64,000 bases of DNA, taken from NCBI GenBank assembly GCA_029564595.1, contig JAKQPS010000035.1, forward strand, positions 4,870-68,869. The letters are read 5' to 3'. The position numbers and the translations under genes are program-made. This DNA is from a bacterium. Lineage in GTDB: Bacteria; UBP15; UBA6099. This document shows, piece after piece, positions 39,749-63,028 of the stretch; within the stretch, counting starts at the first letter, position 1, and the number at the start of each line of letters is the position of its first letter. Under the pieces are notes generated by a model. That model had not been told where the DNA came from. It did not search any database and saw nothing but the letters and a program-made list of their open reading frames with translations.

Positions 39749-42700
39749 TTATCTTGCATCGAACAGAGGATCGCAGAGAAGCGTGTTTGCGGACACCGGG
39801 ACAGATTTGCCATAGTTCTTTTTAAAAACATCGAGGTCCTGCATGGAAACTTTTCCGTCCATATTGAAGTCTGCCGCGGGGTGATACAGAGCGTCGCCCG
39901 CGAAAGAGCCGAACCTGTGTCTTAAAGATTTAAGACTTGCCATTCCGACTGTGGGGCTGCAAGCGGGATTGCCGATCTCGCCGCCGCCGCCGGAATTTCC
40001 GACGGGGATTGAGGTTGGCGACACAGACGTCGCGGTTGTCGCGCTGAGACTTCCTGCGGCCTTCAGCGTCACCATGCATTCGCCGGGCGCTGAATCCGCC
40101 GCGCACCCCATCACCGCCGACATTGCCGGCTCCCACGTCCCCGCCGGAAACACCGCCCGGATGATGTACTGTTTCGACGCGTCAACACATTCGGCGCATG
40201 TTCCCGTTCTCATTTTGAAGAACGGTATATTCCCTATCGCATTCGTCTGCATGGATTTGACGACCGTTTTCGTCGCGGCATCTACCACTTCGACTCTTAC
40301 ACCGGGCAGAGGCGTTTCTACTTTTCCGAACCCCGTCGCCGCCCCCGCCGCCGCGAAACATCCCGGCTCTCCCGCCGCGCATGACTCTATCTCATACTTC
40401 GTGAAAGGTTTGCCGAACTCGATCGACACCGGACACACATCAGGGTCAATCGCGCACGGGTCTTGAGTTTCCAACCTGACCGGCGAGGGGGAAACGGCTA
40501 TCTGCGATTCGCGGCATAAGACCCCGGTGTAGCTCACGCCGAGGTAGTAGTTGCCGGAATAATGAACATCAAGGTTGTTGAATGAAAGAGGTTCTTGTCC
40601 GAGTTGTCTGTCATGCGCGCCGGGCATGGGGCTTGCCGTCAGCCTGCCGTAAGGCGTCAAGCAGGATGCGGGGTTCGAACTGGTGCACAGATACACATGA
40701 TATCCCGCGCCCATTCCGTCGTCATCCGCCGAGTTCGTCCAGCCCGCGCGCGCTCCGTAGTAAGTCGGCGGTATTTCAAACCCTTCCACCGCAACGGGAG
40801 GCAGGCATTTTTCGCCCGGTCCGTCGCAGTAACCACAGTTAGGCGCATTCTGCGCGCCGTAAACTGCGCTTTGGTTGCCCGACGGATCCTTTGCCGTCAC
40901 ACAGTACACATACTGCGCATCAGACGTCACGGATTCATCCATATAATTCAGAACCGTCAGAGGCGAAGAGTTGATTTTTGAGAATTTTGCCGCCGAGTTG
41001 CATGTCGCCAAGTCTCCTTCGCATCTATGGACGTCGTAAGTGACGGGGTTCTTATCCGACACCGCGCTCCAAGCCGGAGAACAAGAGAACACATCGAATT
41101 CCAAAGGAGTATTCATTCGCGGTTTTTCAGGCGGCGTGATGTCTTGAGGAACACATACGACCGGCCCGGAAGTCGCGGGCGCGGGCGTCCACCGGGAAAA
41201 TTTGTCGAACATGTTGTAAGCGTAAACTCTGTAACAATAGGCGACGCCGTTTGTGAGATGAGCGCCGGAGTCCGTATAGCTTGTCTCACCTCCGGCGGAC
41301 ACCGTTCTGATGGGAATTGCCCCGTTGGGATTCGGCAGTTGGGCGCAGCCGCCATTGATCGCAGGCGCTCGCATTATCTTGTATCCCACAAGTTCACCCG
41401 GCGTCGGGTAGTCGCAGTAATCGAAAGTGTCGTATTCGTCCGCGCAAACCTTGTCCCATTCTATTTTACAGGACTGGCCTTCCGGTTCAGCGGTCGCCTT
41501 CTGATTTTCAGGCCAGCGGGGCGCTCCATCCGGATCCCCACAAGGAACCAGCACGCATTTGCGAAACAGATACGTCGTGTCAAACAAACTGCAATTTGCC
41601 GTCTGGCTTTCGGGGCATGTTCCGGCAGCCTTGCAATTATCGCAAGCCTCCACCCAGAAACACCATTCATTTTCTTCACTGCCGAAAGCGGTGTCGTTGG
41701 AATACGACATCGGATTCGGAACCGACGGCTGGGCGATTAGAGAGAAATTCAATTTCGAATAGCCGACAGGGCGGCCCTGAGCATCCGCGCCACATGATGA
41801 AAGCGTTGCTTTTTGACAATAATAGATATTGTATCCGCCGCCTCCGGCCAGATCAGACTCGGAGCCGGGCTCCCAGTTGACATTTATGCCGTAACTGCCG
41901 ACCTGACAAACGACTGAAGGCTCTATCTTCGCCGGAGGTTTTAGGTCTTGAGTCGCGCAGGTGGCGGATGTCCATCCTGATTTGTTGTCGCCGACATCGA
42001 TAGCCCTGACTTCATAACTGTATGTAGTAGCGTTGATGAGGTTCGGATCGTCAAACGAGTTGGGAAGAATGGTGGTCGTGTTCAACTGAACTCCGCCTCT
42101 TCTGATGTCGAAACCGTAAAGAGACGGGTCTGAGGTCTTGTCGGCCGTCCATGAGCAGTAGCATTTTTTTTCATGCCCTATCGGGGTGGAGCAGGTGAAC
42201 TCGGCGGGAGCAACCGGGGCCACCCAGTCTTCGGGCGCGCAGACTGCGGAAGTCCATTGCGAGGGCGGAGCTTCTTGACATATGGGATGCGATGAGGAGT
42301 TCACTGCAGAAAAATAAAAATATCTCGGATGTCCGTTGAGTTCAGAGTCCGGGATGTTAAATGTTTTCGAATACGCAACTGAGCCGTTTTCAGGAAAGTT
42401 ATCAGGGCCGGACAAAGACTCCACAAGGGTCGCCGTGTTCCTGTCGTTGACGGTGTTGTAATAGACGTTGTAATAGCTTACAAAAGATTTGTCAGGCGAA
42501 GGAAAAATATCAAAAACGCAGTCGTTGCCGGCCGCCGGAATGGTCGTCCCCTGTCTTATGCAGGTCGAGGTTGACCCCGCGCCGCCCGTCTTGCAGATGG
42601 AGGATTTCACAATAGGCGGAGCCGGCCTGCCGCACGGGCTACTCGTTACGCTTCTGTTGTCTTTGATCATTTCAAGGCTTGGGGTGGTGTCTGTCCTGAA

Positions 42701-43972
42701 ATACGGGACGCCCCCCGTTAACTGAAGCTTGCTTGTCGCAAACAACATCCGCGCGCTTTTGCTCGTCGAGCCGAGCAACGTCTTTCCGTTGGGCAGGGCG
42801 TTCTTGGCTATGAATCTCAGTTCGCTGTTGGTGTATCCTATTTTCAACTTAGTCTCTGTGTCGGTTCCCACGAAAATCTTGCAAGCCAGCGGGTCCGGCG
42901 TGTTCGGGTTGGTGACGCAGTCGCCGTTCCAGAGAACTTTTGCGAGGTTCGGGTCTATAGCTTCCATTTTCGGAGAGAAAGACAGCGTGAACGCATTCGG
43001 ATAATGCGTGTCCGCAATATTCATATCATCGATGTCGGGATTGAAGAAATGCATGCTATACATTTCAATCGCTCCCGAACCCGATAGAGGCGGCTGTCCG
43101 CCAAGCTTTATCTTGGCGCAAACCACATCGTCCGTCGGCAGTTCTCCGTATCCCTTTCCGGCGCTGGCGGAAAATCCATGTGTATCAACTATCTGCCAAC
43201 CTGAAACGACGGACTGAACTCCATTTTCGTCAGGCTCTCCACAGGTGTCTCCCGTGGGGTCGTTGACTGTGTAAGCGGTTCCGCAAGTCGGAGCGCCCGG
43301 TTGGTTTACTGAACAGCGCTCATAACTTGACATCATTGTACAGTTGTTCGTCGCCGCTGTTTCGTAAAAGTTGTTCCATGAAGTCACGCTTGAGCAGGAC
43401 ACATTGTCTAGGCTGGGAAGTTGTGATGTGACGTTGCCTCTGCTGTCCGCCGCCACGATGTAATATGTGATGATATCTCCGGGATCTGTCCCTGCTAGAT
43501 TAATTTCTCCTTTGAACTTGCCGGAAGCTGAATCATAACTCATCGTTACAGGCGGCCCGGTATTAGCTACCTCGTTCACATAGTAGTAGAGCTTGGGATT
43601 GCCTTGTTTCAAACAGTCCCCTGTTCCGTTCGGGTTGGGTATGCATGGGGGATTGGGAGAGATGGCCGGGTCGGGCCTGCTCCACCATTCGGATATCTCG
43701 CAGTCCGTCCGGTCGCAGTTGTCGCCGCAGCAGACCTGTATCTGTTCCCGCCCTTCAATAGTCGCGTACACCGTCATTATGGCGCCCGGAAGCGCCGATG
43801 AATTGACTATATCTTTTATGACAGGCGTTCGTGGCATCGAAGGTATGCCTAACTCGAATATCAAGTCGTCAGCAAACGCCGCGCGCGCGCCGCACAACAT
43901 CATTGCCGCGGCAGCTATAACGGCAAATGCTACGAATCGCGCTTTCCGGCTTGTTTTCGATTGTCTATTCAT
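39749..43972 (-). CDS. Large secreted multidomain protein with dockerin-like C-terminus
   Basis: The 1407-residue protein has a signal peptide (residues 1-35, ending ARAAFADD) after GGAGGACATG. The mature part contains several fibronectin-type-III-like segments, each with a terminal Tyr/Val pattern (e.g. TTYSYEVRAIDVGDNKSGWT, GVAYCYRVYAYNMFDKFSRW). Many Cys residues occur in the N-terminal region (CCGDNCDRTDCE). The C-terminus has a dockerin/EF-hand-like motif (ADFNMDGKVSMQDLDVFKKN). No catalytic domain was recognised. It is probably a cell-surface or extracellular adhesin or scaffold-binding protein. Confidence 0.8.
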   Translation of the reverse strand: MNRQSKTSRKARFVAFAVIAAAAMMLCGARAAFADDLIFELGIPSMPRTPVIKDIVNSSALPGAIMTVYATIEGREQIQVCCGDNCDRTDCEISEWWSRPDPAISPNPPCIPNPNGTGDCLKQGNPKLYYYVNEVANTGPPVTMSYDSASGKFKGEINLAGTDPGDIITYYIVAADSRGNVTSQLPSLDNVSCSSVTSWNNFYETAATNNCTMMSSYERCSVNQPGAPTCGTAYTVNDPTGDTCGEPDENGVQSVVSGWQIVDTHGFSASAGKGYGELPTDDVVCAKIKLGGQPPLSGSGAIEMYSMHFFNPDIDDMNIADTHYPNAFTLSFSPKMEAIDPNLAKVLWNGDCVTNPNTPDPLACKIFVGTDTETKLKIGYTNSELRFIAKNALPNGKTLLGSTSKSARMLFATSKLQLTGGVPYFRTDTTPSLEMIKDNRSVTSSPCGRPAPPIVKSSICKTGGAGSTSTCIRQGTTIPAAGNDCVFDIFPSPDKSFVSYYNVYYNTVNDRNTATLVESLSGPDNFPENGSVAYSKTFNIPDSELNGHPRYFYFSAVNSSSHPICQEAPPSQWTSAVCAPEDWVAPVAPAEFTCSTPIGHEKKCYCSWTADKTSDPSLYGFDIRRGGVQLNTTTILPNSFDDPNLINATTYSYEVRAIDVGDNKSGWTSATCATQDLKPPAKIEPSVVCQVGSYGINVNWEPGSESDLAGGGGYNIYYCQKATLSSCGADAQGRPVGYSKLNFSLIAQPSVPNPMSYSNDTAFGSEENEWCFWVEACDNCKAAGTCPESQTANCSLFDTTYLFRKCVLVPCGDPDGAPRWPENQKATAEPEGQSCKIEWDKVCADEYDTFDYCDYPTPGELVGYKIMRAPAINGGCAQLPNPNGAIPIRTVSAGGETSYTDSGAHLTNGVAYCYRVYAYNMFDKFSRWTPAPATSGPVVCVPQDITPPEKPRMNTPLEFDVFSCSPAWSAVSDKNPVTYDVHRCEGDLATCNSAAKFSKINSSPLTVLNYMDESVTSDAQYVYCVTAKDPSGNQSAVYGAQNAPNCGYCDGPGEKCLPPVAVEGFEIPPTYYGARAGWTNSADDDGMGAGYHVYLCTSSNPASCLTPYGRLTASPMPGAHDRQLGQEPLSFNNLDVHYSGNYYLGVSYTGVLCRESQIAVSPSPVRLETQDPCAIDPDVCPVSIEFGKPFTKYEIESCAAGEPGCFAAAGAATGFGKVETPLPGVRVEVVDAATKTVVKSMQTNAIGNIPFFKMRTGTCAECVDASKQYIIRAVFPAGTWEPAMSAVMGCAADSAPGECMVTLKAAGSLSATTATSVSPTSIPVGNSGGGGEIGNPACSPTVGMASLKSLRHRFGSFAGDALYHPAADFNMDGKVSMQDLDVFKKNYGKSVPVSANTLLCDPLFDAR

Positions 43973-44893: not shown

Positions 44894-47767
44894 ATGAAGA
44901 AACTGAAGCTGTGGAGAACCCCGGAATCCAGAAACAAGGTCGTGGGCGTCGCGCTGGGGCTGTTGGTGGGAGTGGTCGCCGGGCTGTTGCCGCACCCTAA
45001 GGCGGCAGACCTGCCGGGCGTTGGGGTGGCCCATGAACTGTTGAAGAGTTTCGAGCACAAGGCGTACGACCAGAGATTCCGCACGAGAGGCCCGCTGCCG
45101 GAAGAAAAAGTGTCGCGGGACATCGTGTTGCTGGACATAGACGACGACAGCTACGAGTGGCGCACATGGCCGTTCGACAGGACGATATGGAGCGAGATAG
45201 TGACGGCGCTGGGAGCCGAGGGCGCGGGCGCGAGGATGGTTCTGTTCGACGTGTTTTTCTTCGACCGTTCAGGTCCGGCGTTGAACCCCGGCGTGGCCGA
45301 CACGTTTTCGAAGAAATTCGAGACTCTGGCCTCGACCGTTCCTGAGGAAACAGAGTGGGACCAGAACGTAAAAATGAAACTGTACGAGATTTCGGACAGG
45401 CTGACTGGGCCGGTCGAGGAAAAAGACATCAAAGAGATGGTGGCGGAGCTTGACGCGATCACGGGCGACCCGCAGTTCGCAAGGTTCTCCGAGGCGTACA
45501 ACGACGCGGCGCTGTACCTGTTTGAGAACTCTACGCTGGACGCGCTGGCTCCGGACAGGGACGCGATTCTGGCGGACTCGATACAAAGGGCGGGCAACGT
45601 GTTGCTCGGACAACTCGCCAACAAGGAAGAGGAATCCGCATACAAACGGGACGACATATTGTATGACCCGGACGCGAGGGCGATGTTCCTGAAGTTCATC
45701 GGCATGACCGACAGGACGCAGACGGACAATCAGGCCGAGGTTGAATTGAACAAGGCGCTGCGCAACCTGAGGCCGGGCGATTTCGAGTGGCTGCTGGAAA
45801 AAAGCGGCGAGAAGCAGTCCGGCGCGCGCAAGCCGATACCTTTCAGCGACAAGGAAAAAGAGCTGGTCATGGCTGAACTGGCAAAGGTGCGCGCCCAGAC
45901 GGATTACGGAATGGGCGTGAATGAAAGATTTAAAGCGAAGATAAGGCCCGACAACCCGGTTCCGGCGAAGAGCGTTTTGGACGAGTACATCGACGTGGTT
46001 CAGTTCCAGACGGTTATGCCGATGTTCGGGGACGGCTCGGCGGGAGTGGGATACGTTCTGCCCGAACTGCAGAAGGACGGCGTCATACGCATGATGTCTC
46101 CCGCGCTGAACTTTGACGACACGCTTTATTTCCATATATCCTTCCTCGCGGCGATGCATTATCTGGGCGTTCAGAACGATGACTTGGATTTCTATCCGGA
46201 AAAAATCGTCATAAGGAACGCTACGTTTCCCGGAAGCGAAAAGAAGACGACTATAACGATGCCGCTGGATGAAAAAGGCACGCTGCTTGTGAACTGGGCG
46301 GGGGCGTTCCTGCAGCCGAACACATTCATACACCGCAGCGTTAGAAAGATTTACGAAGACGCGGTTAAATACAACATCCTAAAGAAGAACGAGGCGGGCG
46401 CGCCGCTGGCGCAGCACGAAGCGGCAATTCTGGAAAGCCTCGACGCCGAGGAAGCCAAACGAGTGACCGAGGAGTTGGAGTTTTTTAGGGAAAAGGTGAT
46501 TCTGATAGGTTTGACGGCGGCTGGCACGCACGATCTGAACCCGGTTCCGTTCAATCCGAGGGACCCCCTCGTAGGCATGCACGCCAACGCGGTGAACACG
46601 ATAATCAAAAGCCTGTTCATCAAAAGGGCCGCGTTCTGGGAGGTCTTTGCGGCGGTGGTGGCGATGTCCGCGCTGGTGGGTTTTGTCGGCGGCGCGGCGA
46701 AACAAGCCGTCGGCGGCGCGGTGGCGGCGGGAACAATCGTCGCGTACGCCGCGGCAACCCAATATCTGTTCGGCTCCGCGATGATATGGGCTCCCTTCGT
46801 GTCGGTGGTCGCGGCGATCTCGCTCTCCTACCTGCTGGTGGTGGTCTACAGGTACATGACAGAGGGCAAGGAAGCGAAAAAGATGAAGTCGATGTTCTCC
46901 ACATACGTGAATCCGGAGGTCGTGGAGACGCTGATACATCACCCGGAAAAGCTGAGGCTTGGCGGAGAGAAGATGGACCTGACGGCGATGTTCGCGATGG
47001 CGTACGGGCCGGGGCTTTCGGAAGCCGAGTCGCCGGAGGAGCTTGTCGACAGGCTGAACGAATATTTTACGGCGATGACGGCGAAGATATTTGACAATCA
47101 GGGAATGTTGGACAAGTACGAGGGCGCGATAATTATGGCTGTGTACGGCGCGCCCATTCACTACGAGGACAACGCGGTTAAAGCCTGCTACGCGGCGCTG
47201 GACATGGTGAAGGCCAACGACGAGCTTCTCAAGAAATGGGAGCAGGAGGGAAAGAAGCCGATACGCACTATGGTCGGGCTGAATTCCGGCCTGATGATAG
47301 CCGGGAACATGGGGTCGGAGTCGAGGTTCAACTACACGATAATGGGCGACGCGGTCAACCTCTCGGCCCGTCTTCTGGGAGCCAACAAGCAATACGGCTC
47401 GAGCCTGATGATAAGCGAGTTTACGCTGGAAAAAGCGAAGGATTTCGTGATAGTGAGGATGTTGGACAAGATGCGGGTGGTCGGGAAACTGGAGCCTGTT
47501 AAAGTATACGAGTTGCTGGGCAGGACGGACGAAGGGCTGCCGGAGGATGTGGCGGAGTGCGCGAAACGTTTCGCGGAGGCGTACGAACTGTATCTGGAAA
47601 TGAAGTGGGACGAGGCGAAGGCCGGGTTCCAGAGGGCGATGGACGCCCGGCCCGGAGACGGCCCAAGCAAGGTGTACATGGCCCGTTGCGACGATTACAA
47701 GGCCACCCCGCCGCCGGTCGGCGATGACGGCAAGTGGGACGGCGTGTACGTGATGACCAAGAAATAG
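44894..47767 (+). CDS. CHASE2 class III cyclase subunit, C2-like half (metal Asp lost)
   Basis: The 957-residue protein has an N-terminal membrane helix and a long extracytoplasmic CHASE2 sensor region (about 45-555; DIVLLDIDDDSYEWRTWPFD). Three membrane helices (about 575-650) and a class III cyclase domain (about 665-860) follow, then a short helical tail. In the cyclase domain the two metal-binding Asp are replaced: Met702 in FAMAYG (usual FSDI) and Ala745 in KYEGAIIM (usual KYIGDAIM). The purine-selecting Lys741 and Thr815 and the transition-state Asn822 and Arg826 (YTIMGDAVNLSARL) are intact. It cannot form a normal homodimeric active site but can supply the second half to the downstream paralogue. 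GCGGAGG precedes the ATG. Confidence 0.92.
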   Translation: MKKLKLWRTPESRNKVVGVALGLLVGVVAGLLPHPKAADLPGVGVAHELLKSFEHKAYDQRFRTRGPLPEEKVSRDIVLLDIDDDSYEWRTWPFDRTIWSEIVTALGAEGAGARMVLFDVFFFDRSGPALNPGVADTFSKKFETLASTVPEETEWDQNVKMKLYEISDRLTGPVEEKDIKEMVAELDAITGDPQFARFSEAYNDAALYLFENSTLDALAPDRDAILADSIQRAGNVLLGQLANKEEESAYKRDDILYDPDARAMFLKFIGMTDRTQTDNQAEVELNKALRNLRPGDFEWLLEKSGEKQSGARKPIPFSDKEKELVMAELAKVRAQTDYGMGVNERFKAKIRPDNPVPAKSVLDEYIDVVQFQTVMPMFGDGSAGVGYVLPELQKDGVIRMMSPALNFDDTLYFHISFLAAMHYLGVQNDDLDFYPEKIVIRNATFPGSEKKTTITMPLDEKGTLLVNWAGAFLQPNTFIHRSVRKIYEDAVKYNILKKNEAGAPLAQHEAAILESLDAEEAKRVTEELEFFREKVILIGLTAAGTHDLNPVPFNPRDPLVGMHANAVNTIIKSLFIKRAAFWEVFAAVVAMSALVGFVGGAAKQAVGGAVAAGTIVAYAAATQYLFGSAMIWAPFVSVVAAISLSYLLVVVYRYMTEGKEAKKMKSMFSTYVNPEVVETLIHHPEKLRLGGEKMDLTAMFAMAYGPGLSEAESPEELVDRLNEYFTAMTAKIFDNQGMLDKYEGAIIMAVYGAPIHYEDNAVKACYAALDMVKANDELLKKWEQEGKKPIRTMVGLNSGLMIAGNMGSESRFNYTIMGDAVNLSARLLGANKQYGSSLMISEFTLEKAKDFVIVRMLDKMRVVGKLEPVKVYELLGRTDEGLPEDVAECAKRFAEAYELYLEMKWDEAKAGFQRAMDARPGDGPSKVYMARCDDYKATPPPVGDDGKWDGVYVMTKK

Positions 47768-47811
47768 CCGCGGCCTGCGCCGCATAATGCCGGAATCACT
47801 GGAGAACCTCG

Positions 47812-50800
47812 ATGAAACTAAAACTTCCGCACAAGGCTGAAGACAGGAACAAGATAATCGGCCCGTTCATAGGGCTTGCGATGTCCGCTCTATTCATCGC
47901 GCTGTTCGCGTCCGGAGCTTTAGATACGATAGGGAACCTCGACCTAGACGCGAAGTTCAAGGTGCGGCAGAGATTCGAGAAGCCGCCCGTGAACAGAGAC
48001 ATCCACAATGTGCTGATCGACGACTCGACTCTCGATTGGGAGGGCGCGTACCCTGACGACCCGATATATTACGTGGACGTGATAAACGGGCTTGGGCTGG
48101 ACAAACACGGAGCGCTCGCCACTCTGTTCGCTATCGACTACTCGCGCCCCTTCGGGCGCAAGGTGGACATCGACGTCCGGGAAGGGTTCTCAGGGGCCAC
48201 TGAGCAGATATCTCAGATATTGTTCTACAACCTCGAATTGAAGTTCGGCATGATGGAGAAGATAGGGACGTACAGAGATTTTCTCGACGACCCCGAAGCT
48301 CCGTCGTACGCTGCGGATCTGGCTCCCAGATTCGAGGAGATTGTTTTCGACGAGGAGCTCGGGAGCGTGTCCGGCCTGATGGAACAGGTGGCCGGGTTCG
48401 CCGGGCACAACATGCATCTCAACGAGCTTGCGCCCGACCGGGAGAAGGCGGTTGGCCGCGCGGCGGCCTCCGCTCGCAATGTCTATTTCGCGTTCAGCGC
48501 GAAGAACTATCTGCCGACCCCACACGAGCCGAAAGACCTGAAACTGGACAAGAAAACGCGCGCCGTCTTCGAGCGCGTGCTATCCTACCCCACCCGCAAC
48601 AAGCCGGACAACCCTGCCGAAGCGCTCGTGTTCGACGCCTACCAGAATCTTGATTTGCGCGACTTCGACTTCCTTCTCGAAGGCGAAGGCGAGCCTTTCG
48701 AGGGCGCTGTCGCAAAAAGGATTGCCGAAGACAGAAAGAGGAAGTCAGAAGAGCTTTATAACTTCCACAAGCAGAACTCGCCGCCGATGAGCGCGAAGGT
48801 TCTGAAGACCGACGCCTACGCGAGGAGCCTGTTTGAGAAAGCGATGAAGTCCGACCCGCCGCCGGCCCCCCCTTCCATGGAAGCCCTCGCGCTCGAAGCG
48901 TACCAGTCTCTGTCGGCGAGCGATCTGGACTACCTGATGGGCAAAGAGGGGACGCCTTTCGAAGACGCGATAAACGACAGGCTTCTGAAGGACAAAGTGC
49001 TGCGCATGGCCGGCGCCGAGCAGAAGGAGGGAGAAACCGAGGCGGCTGAAAAAGAATACTACGTCTTCGATATTCCCCCCGGACTTGAAAACGCGTTCCC
49101 GCGGCTCAACAAGGTCAATCCCGTGCAGCCGGAAATCGGGATGAACACCGCCGGTCAAGGCCCGCAGAGGGCGGAGTTCAGCAGAAGAGACGGCACGCTG
49201 CGGATGATCGCGCCCGTGTATGTTTATGAAAACAAACTGTATCCCCACGTGGATTTTCTCATCGCTCTGAAATATCTGAAAGTAAAACCGGAAGATGTGT
49301 TGCTGAAAAGAAATAAAATCGTCCTCAAGAACGCGACGCTTCCCGGAGCTAAAAGCGGGACCGAGGACATATCCATCCCGCTGCTTCCCGGCGGCAAGAT
49401 GCTGGTCAACTGGGCGGGCATCTGGGCGGACACCACGCTGTTTGACACGGACAGCTTCCTGAATTTCTACTCCACCCTCGGACGGCACAGCATCCTTGAG
49501 CGGGGAAGAGCGAACGCGAAGATTCCGCCGGAAGAGCAGACCGACCCGCTGCAAGAGGACGAGGCGAAGATTTACGAGAGCATCGTCAAGACCGGGGAAG
49601 CGGCGACTCTGGACGAAAAGATAAAGGCTCTCAAGGACAAGATAATAATCATCGGGCTGACGGCGGAAGGCACTGCGGACATGAACCCGACGCCGCTCGA
49701 ACCGAGATATAAAATTCTCGGACTGCACGCAAACGCGATAAACACCATAGTTGAAAGGCTGTTCATTGACAAAGCGCCGTTCGTCTGGGTGGCGCTGATA
49801 TTCGTGGTTCTGGGCGCCGGGCTGGGATTCTCCGGCGGCGCGGTCAGGCACACAAACCCGTTCTTGGTGGCCGTCATAAACTTCTCAATCATGCTGTTCG
49901 TGGCGGCTGCTTACTTCGCGGCGGCTAACTATCTTTTTATTGCCAAGCGCATAGAAATCCCCGTGTTCGCCGCTATCGGGCTGATAGCGGCGACGTTCCT
50001 AAGCGTCTTCATCTACCGCTTCCTCACCGAAGAGAAGGAAAAGAAGAAGATGAAAGGCATGTTCTCGACTTACGTGAACCCGCAGGTCGTCGATTCGCTT
50101 CTGGCGGACCCGGACAAGCTGAAACTCGGCGGCGAGAGGACTCGAGCGTCAGTGTTCTTCTCCGACGTAGCAGGGTTCACCTCAATATCCGAAGCTCTGA
50201 CGCCCGAAGAGCTGGTTGAGTTGCTGAACGAATACCTGACGGAGATGACGGCGATACTCATGCAGTACGGCGGCACGCTGGACAAGTATATCGGCGACGC
50301 GATCGTGGGCATCTTCGGCGCTCCCATCCCCTTCCCAGAGCACGCCAAGAACGTCTGCTACAACGCGCTGGACATGCAGGCGAAGATAGCCGAGATGCGG
50401 GAGGTGTGGAAGACTCAGGGCAAACATCTTCTGCAGGTGCGCTGCGGGGCGAACACGGGCGAGATGATAGCGGGCAACATGGGTTCCACAAACCGCTTCT
50501 GCTACACCGTCATCGGCCCGGAGGTGGACTTCGGCGAGCACATGGAATCGTCCGGAAAGCTCTACTCCACCCAGACCACGATAAGCGAGTTCACGCGGGC
50601 CGAGGCGGACGAGTTCATAATCGTCCGGTTCCTCGACATACAGATCAGTTCGGCGTATAAAAATCCGGTGAAGATATACGAACTGCTCGCCAAGAAGTCC
50701 GACGGCCTGCCGGACATCAAGCTCGAATGCTGCGACCTGCACGAGGACAGCGTGCTGTTCTATTTCCAGAGGCGGTTCGACGAGGCGGCGGAAAAGGCCG

Positions 50801-51105
50801 CCCGGATATTCGACATATTCCCGGAGAAACCCGTTGGAGACGCGACATCGGCGCTGACGGCCGCCGCAAAACAGGCCGTCGATCTCTACAGACAGGGCAA
50901 ATATAAGGAATCGGCAAAGCTGATGAGCAAAAGCATCAACTCGAAGTCGTATCCGCCGGAGCGGCTCGAAGAGGAGACGGTCAAGTTCCTCCACCCGACG
51001 TGCATGCAGTTCGTGCGGATAGCCGAGGCGAAGGCCGACCCGCCGGACGCCTCGTTCGACGCGATTCTGGCTGAAGCCACTCACAGGAAAGACCTGAAGT
51101 TCTAG
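47812..51105 (+). CDS. CHASE2 class III cyclase subunit, C1-like half (Asn/Arg lost)
   Basis: The 1097-residue paralogue of the preceding gene, 44 bases downstream, has the same layout: an N-terminal membrane helix, a long CHASE2 region with a charged insertion (about 250-420), three membrane helices (about 650-745) and a cyclase domain (about 750-950), then an extra ~140-residue helical tail. Both metal ligands are present, Asp785 (FFSDVAGFT) and Asp829 (KYIGDAIV). The transition-state pair is lost: YTVIGPEVDFGEHMES has Asp906 and His910 where Asn and Arg are usual, and Pro903-Glu904 replace Asp-Ala. It should therefore need the upstream protein to make one complete ATP site. Confidence 0.92.
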   Translation: MKLKLPHKAEDRNKIIGPFIGLAMSALFIALFASGALDTIGNLDLDAKFKVRQRFEKPPVNRDIHNVLIDDSTLDWEGAYPDDPIYYVDVINGLGLDKHGALATLFAIDYSRPFGRKVDIDVREGFSGATEQISQILFYNLELKFGMMEKIGTYRDFLDDPEAPSYAADLAPRFEEIVFDEELGSVSGLMEQVAGFAGHNMHLNELAPDREKAVGRAAASARNVYFAFSAKNYLPTPHEPKDLKLDKKTRAVFERVLSYPTRNKPDNPAEALVFDAYQNLDLRDFDFLLEGEGEPFEGAVAKRIAEDRKRKSEELYNFHKQNSPPMSAKVLKTDAYARSLFEKAMKSDPPPAPPSMEALALEAYQSLSASDLDYLMGKEGTPFEDAINDRLLKDKVLRMAGAEQKEGETEAAEKEYYVFDIPPGLENAFPRLNKVNPVQPEIGMNTAGQGPQRAEFSRRDGTLRMIAPVYVYENKLYPHVDFLIALKYLKVKPEDVLLKRNKIVLKNATLPGAKSGTEDISIPLLPGGKMLVNWAGIWADTTLFDTDSFLNFYSTLGRHSILERGRANAKIPPEEQTDPLQEDEAKIYESIVKTGEAATLDEKIKALKDKIIIIGLTAEGTADMNPTPLEPRYKILGLHANAINTIVERLFIDKAPFVWVALIFVVLGAGLGFSGGAVRHTNPFLVAVINFSIMLFVAAAYFAAANYLFIAKRIEIPVFAAIGLIAATFLSVFIYRFLTEEKEKKKMKGMFSTYVNPQVVDSLLADPDKLKLGGERTRASVFFSDVAGFTSISEALTPEELVELLNEYLTEMTAILMQYGGTLDKYIGDAIVGIFGAPIPFPEHAKNVCYNALDMQAKIAEMREVWKTQGKHLLQVRCGANTGEMIAGNMGSTNRFCYTVIGPEVDFGEHMESSGKLYSTQTTISEFTRAEADEFIIVRFLDIQISSAYKNPVKIYELLAKKSDGLPDIKLECCDLHEDSVLFYFQRRFDEAAEKAARIFDIFPEKPVGDATSALTAAAKQAVDLYRQGKYKESAKLMSKSINSKSYPPERLEEETVKFLHPTCMQFVRIAEAKADPPDASFDAILAEATHRKDLKF

Positions 51106-56841: not shown

Positions 56842-57807
56842 ATGACTCTGGACATTTCGGAGCTGAAGGGCATTGAGCTGTTCGCGCAGTTCAAGGACGA
56901 CGAGCTTGCCCGGTTCGCTCCCGTCATTGAAAAAATAGAGCTGTCTTCCGGAAGGAATCTATTCGTCGAGGGAGACCCCGGCGATTCTCTGTGCATAATA
57001 GTCAGCGGCGCGATCCGGGTATACAAGACCATAGATTCGATGGCGGGAGAAGAAAAATCGCTGGCCCTGCTCACCGCGGGCGCATATCTCGGAGAGATGA
57101 CGCTTCTGGAAGGTTCTCCCCGCTCGGCGTCGGCCCGCGCGGAGTTCGACTCCGTTATTTTTAAAATCACGCGCGAGAACTTCATCCGCCTGTTGCGCGA
57201 ATACCCACAGGCGGCAATCAGGTTTTTCGTCTCTTTCATGAACGTCCTGTCCGAGCGGCTGCGAAGAACCAACGAGGAGCTTGTCGTGCTGTACGAGATA
57301 GGCAAAGTGGTGGGAGCCGCCCCGCCGATCGACCATCTCCTTGAAGGGGTTCTCCGACCGCTGGTCAACACCGTGAAAGTGGAAATGGGCGCGGTCTTCG
57401 TTCTGAATGAAATCACCGGAAAACTTGAGTGCAAACACGCCGTCGGACAAGGCTCTTCCGACATGCTCAATGTAAAAATCCGAGAAGGCGAAGGAGTCGT
57501 CGGAAAGGCCCTCGCCGAGCAGGAGACGCTTTGCGTCAGGAATTTCGACAATGCCCCGGAGTGCGCCGGGTTGCCCAGACTCGGCTTCGAGCGGCCCGAC
57601 ATGCTGATAGCGCCTCTGGCGCGGGCCGGACGCCCTTTCGGCGCCCTGCTCCTCGCCCAGCGTCTCGACGGCAAGGGCTTCGACAACGCCAACATCAACC
57701 TCATCAACGGCGTCGCCTCTCAGGCCGCCGCCGCCATCGAGGCTGCTCTCTTCCAGCAGGATACCGCCGCAAGGGAAAACTTCGATAGAAAATCAATTAT
57801 GTTTTAG
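56842..57807 (+). CDS. Cyclic-nucleotide-binding and GAF domain protein
   Basis: The 321-residue protein has an N-terminal cNMP-binding domain (residues 8-125) with the phosphate-binding cassette YLGEMTLLEGSPRSASARA. A helical linker (FMNVLSERLRRTNEELVVLY) and a GAF domain (about 150-305) follow. No helix-turn-helix or output enzyme domain was found, so it probably works by protein interaction or by modulating its neighbour. It lies four bases after pilT, and cAMP is a plausible ligand because the Glu and Arg-Ser residues of the cassette are present. The 30-base family B hairpin begins sixteen bases after its stop. Confidence 0.85.
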   Translation: MTLDISELKGIELFAQFKDDELARFAPVIEKIELSSGRNLFVEGDPGDSLCIIVSGAIRVYKTIDSMAGEEKSLALLTAGAYLGEMTLLEGSPRSASARAEFDSVIFKITRENFIRLLREYPQAAIRFFVSFMNVLSERLRRTNEELVVLYEIGKVVGAAPPIDHLLEGVLRPLVNTVKVEMGAVFVLNEITGKLECKHAVGQGSSDMLNVKIREGEGVVGKALAEQETLCVRNFDNAPECAGLPRLGFERPDMLIAPLARAGRPFGALLLAQRLDGKGFDNANINLINGVASQAAAAIEAALFQQDTAARENFDRKSIMF

Positions 57808-59986: not shown

Positions 59987-62900
59987 ATGAAGCTGACCAG
60001 AAGAACGTTTCTGAAAGTTTCGGGCGCGACGGTGGCTGGACTGTCGCTCAGCGGAATCGGTTTCGGGTTCAAGAGTTCCCGAGCCTACGCCGCAGAGCTG
60101 CGCACAAAAGGCGCGACGGTAACAACCACCATCTGCCCGTACTGTTCGGTCAGTTGCAGCATCTTGGTGCACGCTGTTGACGGGAAGATAATCAACACCG
60201 AAGGCGATCCGGATGCTCCGATCAACCGAGGCGCGCTATGCAGCAAAGGCGCGTCGCTGTATCACCTCGCGGTGAACGACGACAGGGTGACCAAGCCGTT
60301 GTATCGCGAGCCGTACGGCAAGGAATGGAAAGAAGTGTCGTGGGACTGGGCGCTCGACGAGATCGCAAAGCGGATAAAGAAGAGCCGCGACGCGAGCTTC
60401 GCAGAGAAGAACGCCAAAGGCGAGACGGTGAACCGGACGGAGGGAATCGCGTCCGTCGGGAGCGCCGCGCTGGACAATGAGGAATGTTACATTTATCAAA
60501 AATTCCTAAGAGGTTTGGGTTTGGTGTATATAGAACACCAAGCCCGCATATGACACTCGGCTACTGTAGCGGCTCTGGGAGAGTCGTTCGGCCGAGGAGC
60601 AATGACCAATCACTGGATCGATTTCGCCAACAGCGATGTCGTGCTGGTGATGGGAAGCAACGCAGCGGAAAACCACCCGATATCATTTAAATGGGTAACG
60701 AAGGCGATGGAGAAAGGCGGCATGCTGATTAGCGTCGACCCGCGTTTCACCAAGACTTCCGCCAAGGCGGACATCTACGCGCGCCTTCGCTCCGGGACGG
60801 ACATTCCGTTCTTGGGCGGCATGATTAAGTATATTCTGGACAACGATCTGATCGACAAGTTCTATGTCCAGAATTACACGAACGCTTCGTTCCTCATCAA
60901 CAAGGACTTCAAGTTCGAGGACGGGCTGTTCTCCGGGTATAACGAGGAGAAACGCAGTTACGACAAGGCGACATGGGCGTATCAGAAGGACGCCAACGGC
61001 GTGATAATGAAGGATCCCTCGATGCAGGATCCGAACTGCGTGTATCAGCTTCTGAAAAAGCATTATTCCCGCTATGACATCGACAAGGTTGTGGAAGTGA
61101 CTGGAACGACCAAGGACGAGTTGTTGAAGGTCTATAAGACGTACACTTCCACCTCCGGTCCCGCGAAGTCTGGAACCATTCTGTACGCGATGGGCTGGAC
61201 GCAGCACACGGTGGGGACGCAGAACATTCGCACTATGTCGATGATTCAGACGCTATTGGGCAACATGGGAGTGGCTGGCGGCGGCGTGAACGCGTTGCGC
61301 GGCGAGTCGAATGTGCAAGGCTCGACAGACTACGGTCTGCTCTTCCACATACTGCCCGGCTACCTGAAGTTCCCCCTCGGCTCACAAGCCACGCTGGCGG
61401 ACTTCCTGAAGGCCACCACGCCGACGACGGCGGAGCCTCAGAGCCTCAACTGGTGGAGCAACACCCCGAAGTACATGGTCAGCCTGCTGAAGGCTTTCTA
61501 CGGCGAAGCCGCGACGAAGGAAAACGATTTCGGATACGGCTGGTTGCCGAAGGGCGACGTGGGAGCCAACTACTCTTGGCTCAATCTGTTCGATCAGATG
61601 AGCAAGGGCAAATTCACCGGATTCTTCGCGTGGGGTATGAACCCGGCGTGCAGCAGCGCGAACGCCGGAAAAGTGCGCAAGGCTCTCGGCGAACTCGACT
61701 GGCTTGTGAACGTGAACCTGTTCCCGAACGAGACGGGACAGTTCTGGAAAGGCCCGGGGATGGACCCGAGCAAGATAAAGACGGCCGTGTTCATGCTCCC
61801 GTGCGCGGCGTCGGTGGAAAAAGAAGGCAGCGTCAGCAACAGCGGACGCTGGGCGCAGTGGCGCTACAAAGCCGCCAATCCTCCGGGAGAGGCGATGCCG
61901 GACGCCGAGATTATCGAAGGTCTCGTCCACCGCGTGAAAGAGCTTTACAAGAAGGAAGGCGGAGCGTTCCCGGCCCCGATACTGAGCCTTGCGTGGGATT
62001 ACGAGGAAAACGGCCACCTGAGCGTTCGCAAGATAGCCCGCGAGATTAACGGCTACTACACGCAGGATGTGCCCGGAGCGGACGGAGCGGTGTTCAAGAA
62101 GGGGTCGCAGTTGGCGAACTTCGTCGGCCTGAAAGACGACGGGACGACCGCATGCGGCAACTGGCTGTATAGCGGAAGCTACCCCGAAGCCGGAAACATG
62201 ATGATGCGCCGGGACAACAACGACGCGTCGGGCATCGGGCTTTACTCCAACTGGTCGTGGTGCTGGCCGTTGAACCGCCGCATCATATACAACCGCGCGT
62301 CGGTAGACCTCGACGGAAACCCGCGCCGCCCCGAACTGCCCGTCATCAAGTGGGACGGAGCCAAGTGGGTCGGAGACATCGCGGACAACGCGGCTCCCCC
62401 GATGTCGGACAAGGAAAAAGGAAAGCTTCCTTTCATCATGACATCCGAAGGAGTCGCCAAGCTGTTCGGTCCCGGACTGGCCGAAGGCCCGTTCCCGGAA
62501 CACTACGAACCGCTGGAATGCCCGGTGGAGAACAACGCGTTCAGTTCTCAGAGAATCAACCCGACCGTCAAACTGTTCAACGAGAAGGGCGAGGGAGAAG
62601 GCAAGGACGTGTATCTGACTTGCGACCCGCGCTATCCGTTCGTGTGCTCCACGTACAGAGTGGTGGAACACTGGCAGACGGGGCTTATGACCCGCTGGAA
62701 CAAGCAGCTTGTCGAATTGGCTCCGCAGAACTTTGTCGAGATGAGCAAAGAGCTTGCGGCTCTCAAGGGAATAAAGAACGGCGAGATGGTGACGATCAAA
62801 TCGCCGCGCGGACAGATCGACGCCGTCGCGATGGTGACATCGAGATTCAAACCGTTCACAGTCAAGGGGCAGACCGTCCATCAAGTGGGAACGACGTGGC

Positions 62901-63028
62901 ACTTCGGCTGGTGCGCGCCTGTAAACGGCGGAGACACCGCGAACCTGCTCACGCCCACCGTGGGCGACGCCAACACCATGATCCCGGAATCAAAGGCGTT
63001 CATGGTTAATATTGAAAGGAAGGGGTGA
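59987..63028 (+). CDS. fdnG: Formate dehydrogenase major subunit, selenocysteine-containing
   Basis: This is one gene of 1013 residues read through an in-frame TGA at 60551-60553 as selenocysteine (Sec189). The context, ARI-Sec-HSATVAALGESFGRG, matches the Sec site of FdnG/FdoG. A SECIS-like hairpin follows. The N-terminus carries a Tat signal (TRRTFLKVSG). [4Fe-4S] Cys residues are at 50, 53, 57 and 85. The molybdopterin domains follow, with GWTQHTVGTQNIRTM, NMGVAGGGVNALRGESNVQG and the C-terminal GTTWHFGWC. It oxidises formate to CO2 in the periplasm and passes electrons to the beta subunit. Full-length size matches E. coli FdnG. SelA/B/C/D are not in the window. Confidence 0.96.
60551..60600 (+). 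promoter_or_regulatory. SECIS-like hairpin after the Sec codon
   Basis: Directly after the TGA, CTCGGC (60556-60561) pairs with GCCGAG (60591-60596). Within it an upper stem, CGGCTCT (60570-60576) with AGAGTCG (60580-60586), has one G-U pair and closes on a GGG loop about 24 bases after the TGA. Distance and a loop containing GG fit bacterial SECIS elements read by SelB. Folding was done by eye. Confidence 0.75.

Follow-up and report, generated by a model that had tools for sequence, protein, structure and literature searches.

Tandem bacterial CHASE2 cyclases with reciprocal active-site losses: a recurrent, predicted obligate two-subunit adenylyl cyclase

Bacterial class III adenylyl cyclases, according to a 2022 review, homodimerise, with both monomers forming two productive centres; the same review regards a fused dimeric bacterial enzyme as unknown and the advantage of the duplicated form as an open question (PMC9552081). 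Animal transmembrane adenylyl cyclases (C1a/C2a; AC5, 8sl3; VC1/IIC2, 1azs) carry the metal-binding Asp residues in one half and draw Lys, Asp/Thr, Asn and Arg from the other, as does the bacterial gene pair described here. Homodimers of soluble guanylyl cyclase (sGC) are inactive, its key residues being divided between subunits (PMC3591389). Bacterial CHASE2 adenylyl cyclases, such as S. meliloti CyaD1, CyaD2 and CyaK, share with the pair the combination of CHASE2, membrane helices and a class III cyclase domain, and CHASE2 enzymes feed the cAMP/Clr pathway (PMC13001267). No description of a bacterial heterodimeric class III cyclase pair of this kind was found in the open-access literature searched. 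The words heterodimer and "inactive cyclase domain" reportedly occur in Shenoy 2004, a possible precedent.

The window, the whole 64,000-nucleotide stretch of contig JAKQPS010000035.1 that was analyzed, contains two CHASE2 cyclase ORFs separated by 44 nt and lying in different frames, with GGAG ahead of the second ATG; the C1-like and C2-like halves are not fused in one chain at this locus. Their features are as follows.

44894..47767, + strand: first ORF, C2-like half, 957 aa (ORF list, Pfam, residue alignment)
First protein: CHASE2 at aa 48-593, membrane helices, class III cyclase domain at ~aa 657-881
46997..46999, + strand: Met702, first metal-Asp position, lost in the first protein (HMM alignment, direct reading)
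47114..47116, + strand: Lys741, adenine-specifying, kept in the first protein (31/31 C2-like halves)
47126..47128, + strand: Ala745, second metal-Asp position, lost in the first protein (HMM alignment, direct reading)
47336..47338, + strand: Thr815, adenine-specifying, kept in the first protein (31/31 C2-like halves)
47357..47371, + strand: Asn822 to Arg826, ribose/transition-state residues, kept in the first protein (each 31/31 C2-like halves)
47812..51105, + strand: second ORF, C1-like half, 1097 aa (ORF list, Pfam, residue alignment)
Second protein: CHASE2 at aa 27-667, membrane helices, class III cyclase domain at ~aa 739-965
50164..50166, + strand: Asp785, metal ligand 1, kept in the second protein (31/31 C1-like halves)
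50296..50298, + strand: Asp829, metal ligand 2, kept in the second protein (31/31 C1-like halves)
50527..50541, + strand: Asp906 and His910 at the Asn and Arg sites, lost in the second protein (never N or R, 31 assemblies)

CHASE2 and Guanylate_cyc were detected by Pfam in both proteins, with CHASE2 scores of 117.8 and 66.2 bits and Guanylate_cyc scores of 44.4 and 70.8 bits in the first and second protein, respectively. Helices flank CHASE2 in both (hydropathy segments 13-35 and 579-656 in the first protein, 13-40 and 649-739 in the second). Six catalytic positions were compared, in the order metal 1, Lys, metal 2, Thr, Asn and Arg: in an HMM alignment with cyclases of the same genome, the first protein reads M-K-A-T-N-R and the second D-K-D-T-D-H, where an intact enzyme reads D-K-D-T-N-R, and neither window protein holds the complete set in one chain. 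The base-binding half carries Lys and Thr (Lys741, Thr815), as class III adenylyl rather than guanylyl cyclases require. All ten residues on which the first-pass annotation had based its proposal of complementary losses were recovered at their positions by direct reading of both ORFs, and the second protein also carries Lys825 and Thr899, which that annotation did not list.

Other features of the window include, at 59987-63028 (+), a molybdopterin oxidoreductase resembling formate dehydrogenase, whose codon 189 is an in-frame TGA (ARI-U-HSATV) that probably encodes selenocysteine, and, at 39749-43972 (-), a secreted-looking protein of 1407 aa without a Pfam match, divergent from the cyclase pair.

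AlphaFold2 single-chain models, with dimer geometry outside their scope, indicate that both cyclase domains keep the class III fold (pLDDT 84.7 and pTM 0.83 for the first domain, 81.1 and 0.81 for the second). Compared with 3r5g, the first-domain model gave Z 26.2 and rmsd 2.2 over 188 residues, and the second Z 25.3 and rmsd 2.3 over 191 residues. At the sequence level, the C1-like domain matches mammalian C1 (1azs_A, AC5, AC8 and sAC 43-173); the C2-like domain matches sAC 278-418, the second half, but also the C1 half of AC9, so that similarity to C1 or C2 taken alone is weak evidence. In solved AC5 (8sl3), C1 reads ...VWSNDVTLANHMEA, with Asn changed to Thr and Arg to His, and C2 reads ...IWGNTVNVASRMDS. 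The earlier remark that C1a shows an Arg-to-His change was thus correct.

Both cyclase domains of a tandem CHASE2 pair could be read in 31 assemblies, which include close relatives and cover the window genome, its order, Nitrospirota, Lindowbacteria, Hydrogenedentota and others. All 31 pairs showed the reciprocal loss that characterizes heterodimeric class III cyclases (animal AC, sGC), a regularity that exceeds chance. Among the C2-like halves, Lys, Thr, Asn and Arg were each present in 31/31, while the metal 1 site held M12 A6 L5 K4 S3 W1 and the metal 2 site H24 A5 S1 V1, never D at either. Both metal Asp and Lys were invariant in the C1-like halves (31/31), with T16 A6 D4 E3 H2 at the Asn site, E24 H7 at the Arg site and drift of Thr to S3 C1, i.e., in four of 31 halves. 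Kept sites are therefore invariant apart from this Thr, and the lost sites hold 6, 4, 5 and 2 alternative residues. Gene order is fixed, with the metal-less C2-like half first and the C1-like half after it, usually within 50 nt or overlapping. The first-pass annotation had proposed surveying adjacent CHASE2 pairs for the same losses and had named, besides assay outcomes, two genomic observations that would count against its reading; neither a pair member with a full residue set nor a CHASE2 pair with non-reciprocal losses was found among the genomes surveyed.

Close to the window genome, the pair is kept within the genus (G001-G003), in another member of the family (G004, where the first protein has 51% identity) and in two further families of the order (G005, G006), and the residues at the lost sites differ among these relatives. 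More distant pairs were located by scanning 84,980 species genomes at the DNA level for a pattern encoding Lys-Tyr/Phe-Glu-Gly and then a codon whose first base is not G, hence never Asp. Matches fell in Nitrospirota (Magnetominusculus, Magnetocorallium, Nitrospira and others), Lindowbacteria, Hydrogenedentota, a Planctomycetota MAG, a Dependentiae MAG and other MAGs, the taxonomy of MAGs being taken as written in their records; matches in Larkinella, Butyrivibrio and Parcubacteria were rejected as not cyclases. The partner regions were reciprocal every time a contig held both domains. Since the scan selected C2-like halves, prevalence can be given for Nitrospirota only, where a search with the C1-like half, which imposes no selection on the partner, detected it in 11/295 genomes. 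Six further pairs from this search were all reciprocal, two of them with Val or Ala at metal 2.

Single canonical CHASE2 cyclases from these and other genomes were all D-K-D-T-N-R in the set examined. No half without a partner was found wherever the contig permitted a check; the halves of Magnetocorallium lie on different contigs, one unlinked case. Beyond close relatives, no conserved neighbours of the pair were found, and hence no hint of the signal sensed. The C1-like gene of one assembly (G098) contains an internal stop, which may be an assembly error. The two genes of another pair (L085) are in frame, and a MAFFT alignment of their read-through fusion stacks both cyclase domains on one.

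The genome containing the window (G000; 4.4 Mb, 203 contigs) encodes 12 class III cyclase domains, of which four belong to solo cyclases, all complete, and eight form four pairs. Each pair consists of a C1-like half, with both metal Asp kept and Asn lost, and a C2-like half, with Asn and Arg kept and the metal 1 Asp lost. Three of the pairs are shorter GAF-cyclases, with one or two multispanning membrane proteins, which have no Pfam match, encoded between the two halves.

L016:11382-15285: GAF-cyclase cassette, same genome, partly reciprocal losses
L017:6246-10954: GAF-cyclase cassette, same genome, partly reciprocal losses
L018:4841-9710: GAF-cyclase cassette, same genome, partly reciprocal losses

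Cassettes of this kind were likewise found in G001-G004, and a short contig of G006 carries an isolated C2-like half. In these cassettes the Asn site of the C1-like half is invariably Glu or Asp, and the metal 1 site of the C2-like half is invariably Glu; the metal 2 site mostly retains Asp, and some C1-like halves still have Arg. We regard the GAF-linked pairs as a third class within the window family, with a weaker split on which the argument does not lean. Adjacent cyclases need not be reciprocal, as illustrated by G030 C13 (L062:2299-6841), where a V-T-D-T-D-H protein stands beside a D-E-D-T-N-R protein. The window genome also has 10 cNMP-binding matches that could read cAMP; a cyclic-nucleotide-binding domain match at ~56938-57204 (+), within a 360-aa open frame ~6 kb downstream of the pair, is a possible reader.

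Within the genus, dN/dS is 0.08-0.10 and 0.055-0.06 for the two genes, so that both are under purifying selection and neither is decaying. Phylogenetic trees were built with the catalytic positions masked. The C1-like and C2-like clades of the window order are sisters (8 rows, support 100/100) amid complete single CHASE2 cyclases, and those of the Nitrospirota type group together as a single clade (100/100), with two complete cyclases as the closest outgroup (100/97). AU tests rejected one clade for all C1-like rows (p 7.5e-7), one clade for all C2-like rows (p 6e-5) and, weakly, a common clade of all pair members (p 0.0126); a single ancient split common to all CHASE2 pairs was rejected on these grounds. 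The trees thus indicate that the two halves of each lineage came from its own duplication and that the same split arose independently at least twice with CHASE2. Even if all pair members formed one clade, the residue losses would be separate, because the halves of each lineage are mutual sisters. GAF pairs fall elsewhere in the tree than CHASE2 pairs.

Taken together, residues, synteny and selection point to an obligate two-subunit membrane adenylyl cyclase that has a live and a dead site and joins two CHASE2 sensors, a reading to which we assign a probability of about 85%. An ancestral homodimeric CHASE2 cyclase would have been duplicated in tandem, and each copy would have lost the half of the shared active site that the other retains. 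In the live site, the metals would be held by Asp785 and Asp829 of the second protein, and the first would supply Lys741, Thr815, Asn822 and Arg826 to bind adenine and stabilize the transition state; the other site of the heterodimer, and both sites of either homodimer, would be dead. From the sGC precedent, the AC5 residues, selection and the fold, we infer one live site per heterodimer, which would let two diverged CHASE2 sensors feed a single cAMP output. ATP is the likely substrate given the Lys and Thr of the C2-like half. The enzyme would depend on both subunits, and its silent site would be available for regulation, as it is in animal membrane cyclases. The first-pass annotation's heterodimer with one productive site is well supported by the sequence comparisons, with 31/31 pairs reciprocal and no half restored in the genomes surveyed. 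The locus is no one-off: the survey showed a recurrent theme of at least two CHASE2 duplications plus a GAF-linked class.

Alternatively, the C1-like protein could be an active homodimer that manages without the usual Asn and Arg, with the C2-like protein acting as a regulator or receptor without catalysis of its own. Substitutions at canonical positions are tolerated by some class III cyclases, and the C1-like half keeps its Lys throughout and mostly its Thr. A regulator, however, would have no need of Lys, Thr, Asn and Arg, all of which the C2-like half has in 31/31 cases across phyla; its metal sites are what drift, and Thr drifts in the C1-like half and never in the C2-like half, leaving this explanation very improbable. 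Each protein being degenerate on its own, both might instead be pseudo-cyclases serving as nucleotide sensors or scaffolds, but a doubly dead pair would drift everywhere, whereas every pair has lost opposite half-sites alone, and the one both-altered protein seen, that of G030 C13, lies outside the CHASE2 pairs; we consider this even less probable.

Least probable of all is that each half pairs mainly with the intact cyclases of the cell and not with its neighbour. The genome does hold four complete cyclases, and sGC catalytic domains pair promiscuously (PMC3591389), but the halves stay adjacent across phyla without any other conserved neighbour and were never found unpartnered where the contig allowed a check. 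On the preferred reading of an obligate two-subunit cyclase, annotating either gene as an adenylate cyclase is misleading, as neither is expected to work alone, and these small separable proteins could be used to test the purpose of the heterodimer and its dead site.

Compared with described systems, the pair differs from its closest single CHASE2 relatives retrieved, in which a single chain carries all six residues and homodimerisation is expected. Like sGC alpha/beta, it comprises two separate homologous subunits, although sGC is soluble and eukaryotic, with a heme-NO sensor and cGMP as product. The chytrid rhodopsin-guanylyl cyclases (NeoR/RGC) form an obligate heterodimer that couples two different sensors to one output (PMC8815786), but fungal RGC1 and RGC2 keep all cyclisation residues, and the basis of their obligate pairing is presumed to reside elsewhere than in the active site. 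In animal transmembrane cyclases, the C1 changes of Asn to Thr and Arg to His resemble those of the C1-like halves of the Nitrospirota type (Thr) and of the window order (His), which have reached these residues independently. The animal enzymes are one fused chain with 2x6 helices and no CHASE2, whereas the bacterial pair is encoded by two genes, each with its own CHASE2 and the C2-like one first; a repeated, conserved split into complementary bacterial subunits would show the same step without fusion. More broadly, it seems reasonably probable that tandem duplication followed by reciprocal loss has repeatedly produced obligate two-subunit adenylyl cyclases from homodimeric ones in bacteria, on at least two occasions with CHASE2 and on a third with GAF. 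The products would be coincidence detectors with a single active site and a silent regulatory one, convergent with animal C1/C2.
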